IMG/VR virus record: IMGVR_UViG_3300025086_000123
Location: 1-32,647 of that record
Source of the DNA: a virus
Strand: one strand, 5' to 3'
DNA: 32,647 nucleotides
The notes under the pieces are model-generated. The model had not been told where the DNA came from. It made no database searches and saw only the letters and a list, made by a program, of their open reading frames with translations. Positions 5,022 through 30,365 of the stretch are shown here, in pieces (the first letter of the stretch is position 1; each line of letters starts with the position of its first letter). Position numbers and translations under genes: made by a program.

Positions 5022-5596
5022 TTACCTCTTCTATGGATTGAACAATATTTTTTTTGTTGTGAAGTTAGCGGCTCTCCACAAAGTTTACCCATGAATGCTC
5101 TGCCTTCGCCTATGACATATTGCTGGCATGTTTCAAATTTTTCTTCTGGCCCTCTTTTTTCCCCTTTATCAGATCTGTTCTTTTTTACTTTTTTTACTTT
5201 TTTAAATTCTACATTTAGCCAGTCTTGGATTATTTTTTCTGATACGTTTTTTTTACGCAGTTCGTAGATTATTTCTTTAACAGCTACTTTTCCAACATGT
5301 ATTGTTTCCAAAAGTTTTTGTTGTGATACATTTTCAAGAAACTCTGTGAAGGTCATATTTTCTGCCCCCAGATATCTTATTGCATAGTAAGGCTTATATG
5401 ACATAAATAGGTCACCCATTGTTGTGGCATTTTCCCCCCGCTCAAACACCTTTTCTTGTCTGGTTCCCATTATAATACGGCTTCTTGCTCGCTCTCTGCT
5501 TACTCCCAGCTCATTGCCTACTTCTCGGAGAGTTTTACCAGACCGACTGAGTTTAAGTGCGCGTTGATTAATTTCGTAAGTTCCAATGACCATCAT
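5018..5596 (-). CDS. HTH protein with C-terminal Cys/His zinc cluster
   Basis: A 192-aa predicted DNA-binding protein. Residues 8-42 resemble a sigma-region-4 or resolvase-type helix-turn-helix (LREVGNELGVSRERARSRI). A Lys-rich linker (KKVKKVKKN) leads to a C-terminal Cys157, Cys173, Cys185, His188 set (last part YCSIHRR), which looks like a zinc site. The combination suggests a phage transcriptional regulator that may contact DNA through both ends. It starts with an ATGA overlap on the stop of the MarR-like gene and ends with an ATGA overlap on the next gene. The specific regulatory target is unknown; proximity to the late operon makes a late activator one possibility. Confidence 0.72.
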   Translation of the reverse strand: MMVIGTYEINQRALKLSRSGKTLREVGNELGVSRERARSRIIMGTRQEKVFERGENATTMGDLFMSYKPYYAIRYLGAENMTFTEFLENVSQQKLLETIHVGKVAVKEIIYELRKKNVSEKIIQDWLNVEFKKVKKVKKNRSDKGEKRGPEEKFETCQQYVIGEGRAFMGKLCGEPLTSQQKKYCSIHRRGK

Positions 5597-5910
5597 TTAT
5601 CTCCAAACATTTTATTCATCAGGCTCTCACCCTTGGGCGTGAGACTAATGCTTCGGTGACGCCTATCATCATGCATCATTTCTATTTCGATCAGCTCTGC
5701 CGCCTTGACTTTGCCTCTGCTATTACTGGAGAGCGAGTGCAGCAATCTATTGAGAGTAGATTTCTTCATACCTATTCTCTCGGACAGATCTGCGCTGGTG
5801 ATTGGCTGCTTCTGGCAGATGATTGAGAACACTAACATGTGATTGATTGATGTCTGAGTTGAATCTAGTACACCCAGAAACTCTTGAATTTGATTTTCCA
5901 TTCTATTCAT
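5593..5910 (-). CDS. MarR-like winged-helix regulator
   Basis: A 105-aa protein with a winged-helix fold pattern: a helix-turn-helix around residues 36-62 (PITSADLSERIGMKKSTLNR) and a wing containing DDRRHRSISLTPKGESL, the usual MarR D-R-x-x-x-S/L-T-x-x-G signature. The frame extends 16 codons further upstream to an ATG at 5958, but the ATG at 5910 overlaps the stop of a 44-codon gene as ATGA, the coupling used throughout this cluster, so I take 5910 as the start. It is slightly shorter than typical MarR proteins (about 140 aa) because the first dimerisation helices are reduced. Ligand and operator are unknown. Confidence 0.72.
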   Translation of the reverse strand: MNRMENQIQEFLGVLDSTQTSINHMLVFSIICQKQPITSADLSERIGMKKSTLNRLLHSLSSNSRGKVKAAELIEIEMMHDDRRHRSISLTPKGESLMNKMFGDK

Positions 5911-6041
5911 AGCACCACCGAAAATATTAATATTATATAGAGGGTCAGCATTAAGCATAACCCTCCAAATATATCTCCTAAGACGCCAAGCGCGTCCTCC
6001 ATTTCACGCAAAATATCGCGCAATTCTTTTATCTTATCCAT
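5907..6041 (-). CDS. 44-aa membrane microprotein
   Basis: Short gene coding for MDKIKELRDILREMEDALGV followed by a hydrophobic C-terminal half (residues 28-44, Leu/Ile/Val-rich), which would be a single membrane span behind an amphipathic helix. It starts 8 nt inside the upstream 129-aa gene and its TGA overlaps the ATG of the MarR-like gene. These two overlaps, in an operon where every junction is of this type, are the main support. Function is unknown. Confidence 0.6.
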   Translation of the reverse strand: MDKIKELRDILREMEDALGVLGDIFGGLCLMLTLYIILIFSVVL

Positions 6042-7038: not shown

Positions 7039-7247
7039 TACACGATCTCCTTTGATGGAATTGATTTTACGAGTGCTTCTATGCCGCCTTTGGCATACTG
7101 GTATGCATCCATTGATGAAAAGCTGTTGTCATAACCCTGTGGGTTATCCATGTTAAACTTGTCACGCGCTGCTTCGAAGCCCATGCCTTGGATGTCTTTG
7201 CGAACCGCGTAAAACCCAGCAAGGTAATGTTTGTTTGTTGTGGTCAT
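7038..7247 (-). CDS. 69-aa hypothetical protein, first gene of early-left operon
   Basis: Encodes a 69-aa protein (MTTTNKHYLAGFYAVRKDIQ at the start). It is preceded by an A/G-rich leader (AGAGAGAGGGAGAGGAG) giving a GGAG ribosome site, and by the promoter at 7279-7306. The same type of leader precedes the plus-strand genes at 17609, 18258 and 19086. The stop and the next start share TAATG. Function unknown; being first behind a repressible promoter it should be among the earliest proteins made. Confidence 0.75.
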   Translation of the reverse strand: MTTTNKHYLAGFYAVRKDIQGMGFEAARDKFNMDNPQGYDNSFSSMDAYQYAKGGIEALVKSIPSKEIV

Positions 7248-7278
7248 TAGAAACTCCTCTCCCTCTCTCTATAAAACA

Positions 7279-7306
7279 TACATAAGACATCTGTCATAGA
7301 TTGCAA
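7279..7306 (-). promoter_or_regulatory. Early leftward promoter with TGACA-GA-TGTCT operator
   Basis: Minus-strand sigma70-like promoter: -35 TTGCAA (7301-7306), 16-bp spacer, -10 TATGTA (7279-7284). The spacer carries TGACA-GA-TGTCT (7285-7296), one mismatch from the inverted repeat found in three plus-strand promoters, and the whole block aligns base for base with them (CCCCTTG..AATCT.TGACA..TGTC). Confidence 0.75.
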
Positions 7307-7706: not shown

Positions 7707-7889
7707 ATGCAAGGCTTTAAGATCACTTACCAAATCGGCTCAGATGACGAAATTGAAAGCCACACAAACATTATCAATGCCGCAGATGCAGATATGGCAG
7801 TGACTTATTTGCTAGAACAGAAAGACGAAAATGGTTTTCCACTATCGTCAATTATCATGCTGAAAATCACAAAAGTTGAACGCGTATAA
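7707..7889 (+). CDS. 60-aa hypothetical early protein
   Basis: First gene of the rightward early set. It has a clear ribosome site (TTAGGAGAG) six bases before the ATG. The product is acidic, with a strand-rich start (FKITYQIGSDDEIESHTNII), a central helix (AADADMAVTYLLEQKDE) and a final strand pair ending KITKVERV, which suggests a compact alpha/beta fold. No family recognised. A UUCG hairpin follows six bases after the stop. Confidence 0.72.
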   Translation: MQGFKITYQIGSDDEIESHTNIINAADADMAVTYLLEQKDENGFPLSSIIMLKITKVERV

Positions 7890-8220: not shown

Positions 8221-8403
8221 ATGACACCAGAGCAATTCAAAGACGCACGACGTGCGCTTGGATACAGCCAGCAATCTCTGGCAGATGAGTGGGGCATGGG
8301 ACAGAACGGTAACCGCACCATACGCCGCTGGGAGAGTGGCGAGAGGCCGCTGAACCCGGTGGCCAGTTACGCTATAAAATTAATGTATGATAATATGGAA
8401 TAA
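8221..8403 (+). CDS. XRE/Cro-type helix-turn-helix regulator
   Basis: A 60-aa protein that is almost entirely one Cro/C1-like DNA-binding domain: FKDARRALGYSQQSLADEWG forms helices 1 and 2, and TIRRWESGERPLNP is the recognition-helix and following-turn signature of XRE proteins. It has an AAGGAG ribosome site. As a last gene of the early-right set, behind a possible attenuator, it is a good candidate for the repressor that reads the TGACA-NN-TGTCA operators, by position and size only. No effector domain is present, so it would act as a Cro-like protein. Confidence 0.8.
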   Translation: MTPEQFKDARRALGYSQQSLADEWGMGQNGNRTIRRWESGERPLNPVASYAIKLMYDNME

Positions 8404-11880: not shown

Positions 11881-12258
11881 ATGAGCAATATTGATGGATT
11901 GGCCTCCGAGTGGCTAGAAGTGAAGGCGCAAGAAAAAGAAATTATCGCGAAACGCCGTGCGATAGAAGAGCAAATCACAAAGGCATTAGATGTCAAAGAT
12001 GAAGGCTCAATTTCCCACAAACTGGAACAACACAAAGTCACGCTGACACAGCCTGTATCACGCAAGGTTGATCCGATTGTCTGGGATAAAATCAAAGATA
12101 AAATTCCTGAAAATATGCACCCGATAAAGCAGACTATTTCTGCCGACGCGGCGGGTTGTCGTTATCTGTTGGAGAAAGAGCCACGGCTTTGGGCGAAAGT
12201 CTCGAAGGCTTTTGAATCCAAGCAAGGCAAGATTGGCGTTAAAGTCGAGCATCTGTAA
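11881..12258 (+). CDS. DUF7173-like early protein
   Basis: A 125-aa protein opening the recombination operon. The N-terminal 40 residues are a charged coiled helix (WLEVKAQEKEIIAKRRAIEE), followed by strands (KVTLTQPVSRKVDPIVWDKI) and a helical C-terminus (WAKVSKAFESK). Helix followed by a G-S-x-x-x-K-V-T-L segment and a V-D-P-x-x-W motif is the layout I recall for small phage proteins called DUF7173 that sit beside Sak4/RecT-type genes. The family name is given from memory and is uncertain. Its stop and the next start share TAATG. Confidence 0.6.
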   Translation: MSNIDGLASEWLEVKAQEKEIIAKRRAIEEQITKALDVKDEGSISHKLEQHKVTLTQPVSRKVDPIVWDKIKDKIPENMHPIKQTISADAAGCRYLLEKEPRLWAKVSKAFESKQGKIGVKVEHL

Positions 12259-12656
12259 TGCTGGCCGCAACATGTCTGGCTCTGAATGTGTACTTTGAGG
12301 CGCGTTCAGAGGCCAGTGTTCTCAGCCAATTTGCAGTCGCGCAAGTCACTATGAACCGAGTTCAGTCGGACAAATACCCTGACACTTTGTGTGGCGTTGT
12401 CTGGCAAAAGCGACAATTCAGTTGGACGCACGACGGCAAGAGCGACAAGCCATACGAAAAAGAGGCTTGGGTTCGCGCACAGTGGGTGGCCAAGGTGACA
12501 CTAGATAACCCCGAAAAAAACGTGGGGTTACTGCCAACAAACGCGCTGCACTATCACGCAGACTATGTCCAGCCAGCTTGGTCAAAGTCAAAATCTCTAA
12601 CGAGAATAACTAAAATTGGTAAACATTATTTTTACAAAAGTGGAGAAGTAAAATGA
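12258..12656 (+). CDS. SleB-like cell wall hydrolase
   Basis: A 132-aa enzyme of the SleB/Hydrolase_2 family, which cleaves glycan strands of peptidoglycan. The hallmark is LALNVYFEARSE near residues 7-18 with the catalytic Glu, followed by VAQVTMNRVQSDKYPDTLCGVVWQ and QFSWTHDG. The C-terminus has ALHYHADYVQPAW. The protein begins directly with the catalytic domain; there is no signal peptide or membrane anchor, so export would need a holin or host route. Unusually it sits inside the early replication operon, coupled by TAATG upstream and ATGA downstream, far from the GH19 endolysin at 29751-30365. It may act late despite its position, or have a non-lytic role. Confidence 0.85.
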   Translation: MLAATCLALNVYFEARSEASVLSQFAVAQVTMNRVQSDKYPDTLCGVVWQKRQFSWTHDGKSDKPYEKEAWVRAQWVAKVTLDNPEKNVGLLPTNALHYHADYVQPAWSKSKSLTRITKIGKHYFYKSGEVK

Positions 12657-17554: not shown

Positions 17555-17582
17555 TTGTAATCTGTGACGGATGTCATATGTT
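17555..17582 (+). promoter_or_regulatory. Repressible early promoter 1
   Basis: TTGTAA (17555-17560), 16-bp spacer, TATGTT (17577-17582). The spacer holds TGACG-GA-TGTCA (17565-17576), one mismatch from a perfect inverted repeat. A GTGTAGAGAGAGAGGAAA leader follows and contains the ribosome site. Confidence 0.8.
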
Positions 17583-17608
17583 GGTTGTGTAGAGAGAGAG
17601 GAAATAAA

Positions 17609-18168: not shown

Positions 18169-18191
18169 AGGGGCTTCGGCTCCTTTTTTTT
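18169..18191 (+). terminator. Strong rho-independent terminator
   Basis: AGGGGC-UUCG-GCUCCU stem-loop followed by eight T. It directly precedes promoter 2, so each gene in this block is transcribed separately. Confidence 0.88.
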
Positions 18192-18203: not shown

Positions 18204-18231
18204 TTGTAATCTGTGACAAATGTCATATATT
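18204..18231 (+). promoter_or_regulatory. Repressible early promoter 2
   Basis: TTGTAA (18204-18209), 16-bp spacer, TATATT (18226-18231). The spacer contains a perfect TGACA-AA-TGTCA (18214-18225). It is followed by the GTAGAGAGAAAGGAAA leader. Confidence 0.82.
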
Positions 18232-18257
18232 AGTTATGTAGAGAGAAAGGAAACACT

Positions 18258-18989
18258 ATGAAAAATGTAAACATCAAACCAGTCAACAATGGCAAAAAAG
18301 CAGCAGACCGCAATCGCTACTGTGGCCCAGCCGTCATCAGCGCAGTCACTGGTATGACTACTGGAGAGGCTGCTCGACTGATTCGTCATGTTGGTGGACG
18401 CAAATCCATCAAAGGCTCAACTACACATGAAGTCATAAGATCTCTTGAGATGTGTGGCATTAGAGGTCAGCACAAAACATTTGGACTTGATCTTGATCGT
18501 AGCAGTGGAGTGACACTAGCTGGCTGGCTCAAGTCTACAGTCAAAGAACGCACAGCCAATCGTGTGTTTTTGATCGTTGCTGGTTGGCACTGGCAACTGG
18601 TTCAAGGACGCCGCTACGTTTGTGGGATTGTTGGTGATGTGGTCAGCATCAAAGACAAAAAGGTAAAACGCCGTGCGCGTGTAGCCGAAGTCTATGAGCT
18701 TACATCAATGGGCGCGATCACTACGCCCAGCGAGGCTATAAAGCCAAAGCGTGTGGCGTGTGGTGCAGACAGGGATCGTGGCAAAGCTCAACGCCTAGCA
18801 AAGAAGATGGGCATGGAGATCACCATTGAGCGTTCTGGGTATGGAGAGAATGCGTACTGGATCGATTACGAAAGTGAAGACGATTATGTAGATCTTGGCG
18901 TAATCGAAGGCCACTGCTCATACGACTGGCAAGAGGTGTTCTGGAAGCTCCAAGAAATCGAGCAGCACCAACAAAAAAAGGCAGCATAA
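18258..18989 (+). CDS. Papain-like (C39-like) cysteine peptidase, early
   Basis: A 243-aa protein with the hallmark of C39/papain-like peptidases: Cys22 in NRYCGPAVISAVTGM, a helical segment, then His111 in VAGWHWQLVQG and a likely third residue, Asp127, in CGIVGDVVS. Such folds cleave peptide or isopeptide bonds, often after double glycine, or act as amidases. The C-terminal third (KAQRLAKKMGMEITIERSGY, EDDYVDLGVIEGHCSYDW) is extra and may bind a substrate. There is no signal peptide, so it acts in the host cytoplasm. Placed alone between a repressible promoter and a strong terminator, it is a candidate host-takeover or anti-defence protein. Catalytic activity is inferred from the Cys/His pattern only. 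Confidence 0.72.
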   Translation: MKNVNIKPVNNGKKAADRNRYCGPAVISAVTGMTTGEAARLIRHVGGRKSIKGSTTHEVIRSLEMCGIRGQHKTFGLDLDRSSGVTLAGWLKSTVKERTANRVFLIVAGWHWQLVQGRRYVCGIVGDVVSIKDKKVKRRARVAEVYELTSMGAITTPSEAIKPKRVACGADRDRGKAQRLAKKMGMEITIERSGYGENAYWIDYESEDDYVDLGVIEGHCSYDWQEVFWKLQEIEQHQQKKAA

Positions 18990-18996
18990 ATTAATT

Positions 18997-19017
18997 GGGG
19001 CTTCGGCCCCTTTTTTT
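18997..19017 (+). terminator. Strong rho-independent terminator
   Basis: GGGGC-UUCG-GCCCC (18997-19010) followed by seven T. The bases after it (TGCCTACCCCCC) match those after the terminator at 18169, showing that terminator and promoter were copied as one block. Confidence 0.9.
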
Positions 19018-19029
19018 GCCTACCCCCCC

Positions 19030-19058
19030 TTGTAATCTGTGACAACTGTCACTATCTA
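19030..19058 (+). promoter_or_regulatory. Repressible early promoter 3
   Basis: TTGTAA (19030-19035), 17-bp spacer, TATCTA (19053-19058); an alternative -10, TATAAT, lies at 19057-19062. The spacer has a perfect TGACA-AC-TGTCA (19040-19051). An AGAGAGAGGAAA leader follows. Confidence 0.8.
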
Positions 19059-19085
19059 TAATGTATAGAGAGAGAGGAAATCAAA

Positions 19086-19937
19086 ATGACACGCATCGAC
19101 ACACACCGCCCAAGCGCCATAGAGCCCAGCGAATACGCATTTGTATCTTTCCACAGCCATCGCGCCGATGATGTATGGGAATCAATTTCAGAGCAGCAAG
19201 CGTTTCGCTCACACATGATATCGACTGGCGCAAAATTCTCCACCCATAGCCATGGTGGTTCGTGCCATGTGTGTGGCGCTCACGCTTATACCGTAGCACG
19301 TTTTCATCACGCGCCCACAAACACTTATGTCGAGGTTGGCGAAATCTGCGCCGAAAAATTGCACAGCGGCGAAGCGCTTAACTTTCGCTCTTTTCGCGCA
19401 AAGGCCAAGGCTGGAATGGAAGCTGCCGCTGGCAAGGCTAAGGCAGAGCGCTTTCTTAAAGACGCTGGCGTGACTTGCGCTTACGACATTTGGCTACAGA
19501 AAGACTACGATAATTGGGAATGGGAGGAAGCGACTATTTTCGATATCGTGAGCAAGCTAGTTCGCTATGGCAGTATCAGCGACAAGCAAGTAGCGTTTAT
19601 TTCCAAGCTGATGAAAAAGATTGATGACCGAGCGGAAATCGCAGCTCAAAGAGCCGCAGAAGCCGAAGCCGCTGCGCCAATTCCTTGCGACGGTGAGCGC
19701 ATTCACGTTCGCGGTGAGGTAATTACAACCAAGTATGTAGAAACCAATTTTGGCGAGATCCTTAAAATGCTTGTGCGCCACGCTGACGGTTGGAAGGTAT
19801 GGGGCAGCGTCCCTGCGAGTATAGATCCTTTGCGCGGTGACATCGTAACTTTCGACGCCAAGGTAAACGTCAGTAAGGATGACGAAAAATTCGGGTTCTT
19901 TAGCCGCCCGACTAAAGCAAAAATTTTGGGCGCATAA
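19086..19937 (+). CDS. Zinc-site early protein of unknown function
   Basis: A 283-aa cytoplasmic protein. A probable zinc site uses Cys60 and Cys63 (CHVCGAHAYTV), a His near 74-75 and Cys88 (VEVGEICAEKL). A helical Lys/Ala-rich middle (RAKAKAGMEAAAGKAKAERF) and an acidic stretch (NWEWEEATIFD) follow, then a C-terminal strand-rich domain (IHVRGEVITTKYVETNFGEI; DIVTFDAKVNVSKDDE; TKAKILGA) that looks like an OB fold and could bind single-stranded nucleic acid. Third of the individually controlled early genes. The family is one I have seen in phages and plasmids without function. Confidence 0.72.
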   Translation: MTRIDTHRPSAIEPSEYAFVSFHSHRADDVWESISEQQAFRSHMISTGAKFSTHSHGGSCHVCGAHAYTVARFHHAPTNTYVEVGEICAEKLHSGEALNFRSFRAKAKAGMEAAAGKAKAERFLKDAGVTCAYDIWLQKDYDNWEWEEATIFDIVSKLVRYGSISDKQVAFISKLMKKIDDRAEIAAQRAAEAEAAAPIPCDGERIHVRGEVITTKYVETNFGEILKMLVRHADGWKVWGSVPASIDPLRGDIVTFDAKVNVSKDDEKFGFFSRPTKAKILGA

Positions 19938-29750: not shown

Positions 29751-30365
29751 CTACTTCACCCACTCATATACTTTTTTAGTTTCTTTTATACGATGATCTA
29801 GACCTGTATAGCCGCCGTTAATCCGTTTGGTTAGACGTTTAATTGCACCATCATTAACACCCTCATCACATATTTTCCATAGGTTGTTTGCCTTGAAGAA
29901 CCAAATGGCTGTATCCATCGCGTAATCTTCTTCTAGAAGAGATGGATCTGTTAAAACTTCTGGCTTTCCCATATCACTAGAAAATGCTTTTACGTTGTTA
30001 TACCCTGTCAATTGGATAAAGCCTCGCCCTATGTATAGACTGGCTTTTTCTTTTGTGTCATTGCCCATTCTGCCAAAATATACGTTTTCAGCTAATGCCT
30101 TTGAGTTTCGGGCGTAAGGTTTTGCACTTTCTTTTGTGGGGAAGCGGCTAGGCCATACACGCATCATAGATTCTACAGAATAATTTAAGTTTTCTCTCAC
30201 AAAACGAAATGTACCTGATTCATGTATCACTTGCCCAAGCAAGTGTGCTCCACGCTCTGGAGACAGATCATAATGTTTTACAATACTCCGCGCTGTGTTG
30301 GGACCGAATGCTCCATCTGGGCTACACCCACACTTCTTTTGCAGTAGTTTTAATGCATTACTCAT
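29751..30365 (-). CDS. GH19-type endolysin
   Basis: A 204-aa peptidoglycan hydrolase of glycoside hydrolase family 19 (chitinase-like lysozyme). The catalytic Glu49 lies in QVIHESGTF and the second Glu58 in FVRENLNYS; the substrate-cleft signature YIGRGFIQLTGYNN is at 111-124, and KRINGGYTGLDHR follows near 180. The N-terminal 30 residues (LKLLQKKCGCSPDGAFGPNT) resemble a shortened peptidoglycan-binding repeat. There is no signal peptide, so release depends on a holin; candidate holin genes lie directly upstream. It would cause lysis at the end of infection. Confidence 0.9.
   Translation of the reverse strand: MSNALKLLQKKCGCSPDGAFGPNTARSIVKHYDLSPERGAHLLGQVIHESGTFRFVRENLNYSVESMMRVWPSRFPTKESAKPYARNSKALAENVYFGRMGNDTKEKASLYIGRGFIQLTGYNNVKAFSSDMGKPEVLTDPSLLEEDYAMDTAIWFFKANNLWKICDEGVNDGAIKRLTKRINGGYTGLDHRIKETKKVYEWVK

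Follow-up and report, generated by a model that had tools for sequence, protein, structure and literature searches.

A free-standing family of predicted papain-like cysteine hydrolases in alphaproteobacterial phages, with an invariant second cysteine near the putative catalytic histidine

What would a phage do with a papain-like enzyme that is encoded apart from the genes such enzymes commonly serve? The window analyzed here, a 32,647-base fragment from IMG/VR, belongs to a marine phage that is closely related to Roseobacter phage CRP-901. On its plus strand lies an open reading frame that carries the motifs NRYCGPAVIS (with Cys22) and AGWHWQLV (with His111), and which the first-pass annotation had read as a cytoplasmic, papain- or C39-like cysteine peptidase with an extra C-terminal domain. 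The coordinates of the frame and both residues were given correctly. We favor, at a probability of about 0.5, an accessory intracellular papain-like cysteine hydrolase, most likely a peptidase, that would act on a host protein, possibly one involved in defence. The gene and its two domains are as follows:

18258..18989, plus strand: coding sequence, 243 aa, ATG start; predicted cysteine hydrolase of papain-like (C39) fold, with an alpha-beta-beta-alpha domain at its C-terminus (open reading frame, relatives, model and structural matches)
18258..18722, plus strand: putative N-terminal catalytic domain, residues 1-155, strongly basic (model, PDB matches spanning 1-155, charge)
18738..18986, plus strand: predicted C-terminal domain, residues 161-243, acidic, alpha-beta-beta-alpha, missing in single-domain homologues (separate model, pLDDT 87.4)

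The open reading frame is a real gene that is under purifying selection within its type. The whole-gene dN/dS, determined with relatives at a dS of about 0.7-1.2, is 0.11-0.16 and the product is therefore a functional protein. Relatives were recovered from IMG/VR at 71 loci with the single sequence as query and on 256 stretches with a profile. Outside IMG/VR, members were found in one Erythrobacter phage and several Brevundimonas jumbo phages, and a scan with the Brevundimonas homologue yielded no additional members. A profile scan of bacterial genome contigs (genome_contigs) returned three relatives, on contigs of 4.4 to 7.3 kb, two of which derive from Rhodobacteraceae assemblies. Since there are just three, at least one of them with phage neighbors, the family looks phage-borne within reach of the search patterns used. 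Searches of the protein against Pfam, NCBIfam and PADLOC gave no match of note. The orthologue in CRP-901, gp28, is 86% identical and annotated as a hypothetical protein; the CRP-901 paper makes no mention of a peptidase or protease (PMC10149686), and our literature searches found no description of this gene. The family is a conserved, unnamed one from alphaproteobacterial phages.

The structural evidence is in line with the papain-like reading. An AlphaFold2 model built on a 39-sequence alignment has a papain-like fold (pLDDT 89.6), in which helix 22-31 starts at Cys22 and strand 111-116 starts at His111, followed by a tight hairpin turn (117-118), strand 119-122, a coil and strand 141-150. 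Model and alignment together thus put a conserved Cys where the core helix begins and a conserved His on the core strand that follows, as in clan CA. In VIA-align the C39 peptidases lead with Z 9.0-9.8, headed by LahT (6mpz, Z 9.8, rmsd 3.1, 122 aligned) and followed by ComA (5xe8, Z 9.6), 3k8u (Z 9.4) and 3b79 (Z 9.0), with 8brf (YopQ) tying with 6mpz at Z 9.8. Deubiquitinase-like folds (Josephin, UfSP, M48) at Z 5.4-8.4, a resemblance of fold only, and staphopain folds at Z 5-8 rank lower. Foldseek found nothing in the PDB at E <= 0.001, the best match being a pseudomurein endoisopeptidase at 6e-3. In BFVD it found 11 viral proteins at E <= 1e-3, of which the named ones are phage proteins, uncharacterized except for one 'thioesterase domain' label and none with a tested function. 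When the family profile was compared with 177,635 PDB sequences, two ComA peptidase domains ranked first and their CGP motifs aligned with that of the target, at an E of 0.07 that is non-significant and suggestive only. Prediction and fold search returned no contrary fold, and a papain-like fold is well supported by the model, as is the Cys/His site by the invariance of both residues.

The resemblance of the modeled fold to C39 is good, yet it falls short of establishing C39 membership. A Pfam scan of the protein that included C39 (PF03412) gave zero families at E <= 1, while the same model does detect host C39 genes in positive controls, and hhalign against six C39 sequences gave no significant match (the alignments were small). 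Like the C39 domains of ComA PEP, LahT and PCAT1, the target has a CG motif at the start of the core helix, a His on the core strand and, at His+16, a residue that is commonly D or E, in many cases with P after it. Unlike these domains it is free-standing, with no double-glycine substrate or ABC transporter nearby: there is no fusion to an ABC exporter, and none occurs in the annotated surroundings of CRP-901 or among the recurrent neighbor families. The oxyanion Gln expected at Cys-6 is absent as well, position 16 being A, G, S, R, T, P or a gap, and never Q, in the 81 N-domains considered. This absence, the lack of a significant C39 profile match and the weak Foldseek result for the PDB are counted against the reading that we prefer.

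Conservation was counted over 81 distinct N-domains, 80 of which are complete at Cys22. The positions concerned are:

18321..18323, plus strand: codon of Cys22, putative nucleophile heading helix 22-31, motif NRYCGPAVIS (Cys in 80/80)
18588..18590, plus strand: codon of His111, at the start of strand 111-116, motif AGWHWQLV (His in 81/81)
18621..18623, plus strand: codon of Cys122, possible third member of the active site, at the position of the wider-family Asp (His+11; Cys in 81/81)
18636..18638, plus strand: codon of Asp127, at His+16 as in C39, variable (81 N-domains; C39 spacing)
18645..18683, plus strand: basic conserved segment S130-V142, SIKDKKVKRRARV (R138 and R139 in 80/81, V142 in 81/81)

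No homologue that covers the site lacks Cys22 or His111. Asp127, which had been put forward as the third member of the triad, fared differently: the position is D in 32, E in 31, S in 11, N, A and T in two each and K in one of the 81 N-domains (D/E/N in 65), and position 128 is P in 39. The C39 signature of Asp at His+16 followed by Pro is not kept in the family, and Asp127 as an invariant triad member is rejected by conservation despite its C39-like spacing and D/E-P motif. Asp133 was considered too; it is D in 68/81 and lost in the Brevundimonas phages. The residue near the His that never changes is Cys122, and Cys, His and Cys at 22, 111 and 122 occur jointly in all 80 complete sequences.

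Such joint invariance would also be expected if the three residues bound a metal or formed a redox pair, with the protein a non-catalytic factor that uses its papain-like scaffold for binding or as a sponge. The missing oxyanion Gln, the variability of the acidic third residue and the very basic character of the domain would suit such a role. However, a Cys heading the core helix with a His on the next core strand is the catalytic arrangement of this fold, relatives that have Asp at His+11 retain the same Cys and His, and inactive C39-like domains can lose the Cys, HlyB being a case in point. Weighing these, we consider a non-catalytic factor unlikely.

The relatives just referred to form a wider family, which bears directly on the third residue of the hydrolase that we prefer. 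Gp28 of phage CRP-902 (L164, 4404-4883) shares 28% identity with the target across residues 14-121 (E 9e-5) and resembles a papain-like protein of the Cys-His-Asp kind with a single domain. It matches phrog_3754 (E 6.7e-8), as does the Kikimora homologue (E 0.009), whereas the target itself has no direct match to phrog_3754 at E <= 1. Wider-family members from alphaproteobacteria score 39-46 bits with the target profile; proteins related to CRP-902 gp28 are present in alphaproteobacterial genomes (L173-L179, L190). Phrog_3754 and CRP-902 gp28, which carry no functional name, share sequence homology and the same Cys and His with the target. In a comparison of the target with 13 wider-family proteins, which had been reached by way of CRP-902 gp28 and phrog_3754, Cys and His were present in all 13 and an Asp stood exactly at His+11 in all 13. 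In the ungapped register this Asp corresponds to the invariant Cys122, the point on which phrog_3754 and CRP-902 gp28 differ from the target. MAFFT opened a five-residue gap for most of the 13 and so aligned the Asp with position 127. We favor the ungapped register because the modeled turn (117-118) and the DG or NG turn found in most of the 13 relatives are equally far from the His, and because CRP-902 gp28 and the target have HxQLVxG in common without gaps. The C39-like register, which retains position 127 at His+16, is the less likely alternative.

A third polar residue beside the His is optional in the papain-like superfamily. By judgement rather than computation, Cys122 is probably the functional third residue, position 127 would take that role with a clearly smaller likelihood, and a plain Cys-His dyad accounts for the small remainder. 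The active site may thus be Cys-His-Cys. An arrangement of this kind has a precedent in the T6SS amidase Tse1, which has Cys110 at the third position and works with a Cys-His dyad (PMC3391265; PMC10318531). Tse1/Tae1 (4F0V) shares the papain-like Cys-His dyad and a Cys at the third position with the target. It differs in being an NlpC/P60-related peptidoglycan amidase, and among Tae1 relatives the third position varies between Cys, Ser and Trp (PMC9270033), whereas the Cys of the target family never varies.

The predicted extra domain of the first-pass annotation is borne out by separate modeling: the C-terminal domain folds alone in prediction (pLDDT 87.4), and single-domain versions of 153-154 aa (L057, L063) and about 141-143 aa (L145, L163) occur naturally, so that the domain is optional. 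The two parts differ in charge, residues 1-155 carrying about +17 (against a family median of +18.6) and the acidic C-terminal part -3. In VIA the best match of the C-terminal model was T7 Gp1.2 (Z 6.5), followed by dsRBDs at Z 5.5 and below. T7 Gp1.2 binds the host dGTPase. These resemblances may reflect just a common fold and are too weak to name the domain. Against Pfam the window copy gave no match and its relatives chance-level ones only, and the domain was not found elsewhere in the phage collection.

The genomic context of the family varies between lineages. In CRP-901-type phages the gene comes after the helicase and VRR-nuclease genes, in a second lineage it lies tail-to-tail with the gene for the terminase large subunit, and in a third it is upstream of that for the terminase small subunit. 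The first-pass statement that no virion gene adjoins the peptidase gene holds for the window but not for the family, which stands beside terminase genes in other phages; the gene was also taken to be early, and its terminase-adjacent position in some phages means that it may have a late role.

The slot of this gene can be compared in CRP-901 and CRP-902, which infect one Roseobacter strain, FZCC0083. The neighbors of the slot are nearly the same in both (c21 99%, c1 96%, c26 98% and the downstream gene 84% identical), whereas the slot holds a 243-aa Cys122-type protein in CRP-901 and a 159-aa Asp-type protein, without C-terminal domain, in CRP-902, with 22% identity over the aligned part. Both stand behind the same promoter type: the element is directly ahead of the CRP-902 gene and, in CRP-901, ahead of the 61-aa gp27, upstream of gp28. 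The start of CRP-901 gp28 overlaps the end of this 61-aa gene and it has no promoter of its own, unlike the gene in the window. In five of six IMG/VR contigs with a gene of the CRP-902 gp28 type, upstream neighbors and the same downstream gene are both present; the sixth carries the upstream neighbors. Slot turnover combined with purifying selection within a type is the pattern that we would expect of a host-directed accessory enzyme, and it suggests a tool against the host that changes fast. A homologue of gp27, a 60-aa gene (7707-7889, plus strand), lies 10 kb away from the peptidase gene in the window, and small genes thus appear to be shuffled between slots.

Another recurrent neighbor is c1 (MRLYxNxxGxWFGTQADAR..., about 106 aa; L072, 11411-11731; L164, 4001-4321), which is near the peptidase gene in 22 of 88 loci and directly upstream in about 12 (-3 to 40 nt); a distant copy occurs in Sphingobium phage Lacusarx. 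This proximity, together with the terminase genes near the family in two other lineages, would suit a peptidase that processes a phage protein, such as c1, for assembly or regulation. We give this only a small chance: no c1 homologue was found in the window (a fragment), the adjoining structural genes differ among lineages, and CRP-902 swaps the enzyme yet has a c1 that stays 96% identical. A host-directed role would agree with the fact that CRP-902 carries a diverged relative in this slot; the particular targets proposed earlier (a defence protein, a ubiquitin-like conjugate or a regulator) would be candidates at most.

The expression signals of the gene point to shared control:

18204..18231, plus strand: promoter-like element TTGTAA - 16 nt - TATATT, whose spacer holds TGAC-N4-GTCA at 18214-18225 (further copies elsewhere in the window and in CRP-901)
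18246..18253, plus strand: ribosome-binding-site-like AAAGGAAA (sequence)
18169..18184, plus strand: intrinsic-terminator-like hairpin with T-run, ending the upstream gene (sequence)
18997..19017, plus strand: intrinsic-terminator-like hairpin with T-run, ending the target gene (sequence)

The window has four nearly identical copies of the promoter, at 17555-17598, 18204-18231 and 19030-19061 on the plus strand and at 7263-7306 on the minus strand, where 100 shuffles gave an expectation of zero for the three on the plus strand. They precede the target, the genes before and after it and an opposite-strand gene starting at 7247; CRP-901 likewise carries four copies. The separate control that had been proposed is right in that a promoter and a terminator of its own flank the gene, and wrong in that the element recurs at 17555 and 19030 (plus) and 7305 (minus). 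Because the promoter is one of four nearly identical copies, the gene is, as far as its sequence signals tell, monocistronic but a regulon member and not individually controlled. The spacer palindrome TGAC-N4-GTCA resembles an operator.

The cassette as a whole, TTGYAATCTRTGAC-N4-GTCW with a -10-like box and a GAGAGAGGAAA-type leader, is found ahead of at least four transcription units. One of these is the next gene downstream (19086-19937, plus strand), which has a CxxC zinc-finger-like N-terminus and matches phrog_18425, phrog_4750 and phrog_4265, all of function unknown. By eye, a MarR-like open reading frame (5593-5958, minus strand) and an HTH-like one (8221-8403, plus strand) are regulator candidates. 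Also by eye, an open reading frame at 12258-12656 (plus strand), in the replication arm and apart from the late lysis genes, resembles one for a SleB-type cell-wall hydrolase.

A papain fold may also support chemistry other than proteolysis, namely that of an amidase, transglutaminase, deamidase or acyl transferase on a non-protein or modified substrate, including peptidoglycan. The best Foldseek match in the PDB, the pseudomurein endoisopeptidase, and the fact that Cys-His-Cys is best known from the amidase Tse1 speak for it. Nevertheless, the sequence has no evident signal peptide, a separate lysis-type gene is present in the late module (CRP-901 gp40, 'chitinase'; window counterpart 29751-30365 by position), and the promoter context is that of the replication arm, which together make this rather improbable. 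The proposed cytoplasmic location agrees with the sequence, in which neither a signal peptide nor neighboring transporter or maturation genes are apparent.

On the host-directed reading that we prefer, Cys22 would serve as nucleophile and His111 as base in a papain-like fold closest to C39, with Cys122 probably replacing the Asp at the third position, as in Tse1/Tae1, and an acidic residue 127 doing so less likely. The acidic C-terminal domain, variably present among relatives, probably steers the enzyme to its target. The enzyme would be made from its own transcript within a phage regulon and attack a host protein, possibly a defence component, and the slot would let sister phages exchange diverged versions of it. 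A more specific picture is tentative and, in our view, doubtful: a phage-specific papain-like lineage where a strictly invariant Cys took the place of the catalytic Asp, giving a Cys-His-Cys site that is maybe redox- or metal-gated, with a detachable targeting domain, and which is swapped with Cys-His-Asp relatives in one slot as a host-directed weapon.

In conclusion, we regard the family as one of free-standing phage papain-like cysteine hydrolases not assigned to C39. The invariant Cys near the putative catalytic His makes the question of the active site testable, and the pair of CRP-901 and CRP-902 on one host strain makes that of the host target directly so. CRP-901-type phages are reported to be abundant and widespread in the ocean (PMC10149686), and many of their genes still lack a name. 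A cysteine hydrolase that is encoded on its own and swapped in its slot would be a plausible cutter of host proteins, a counter-host strategy on which we found little literature.
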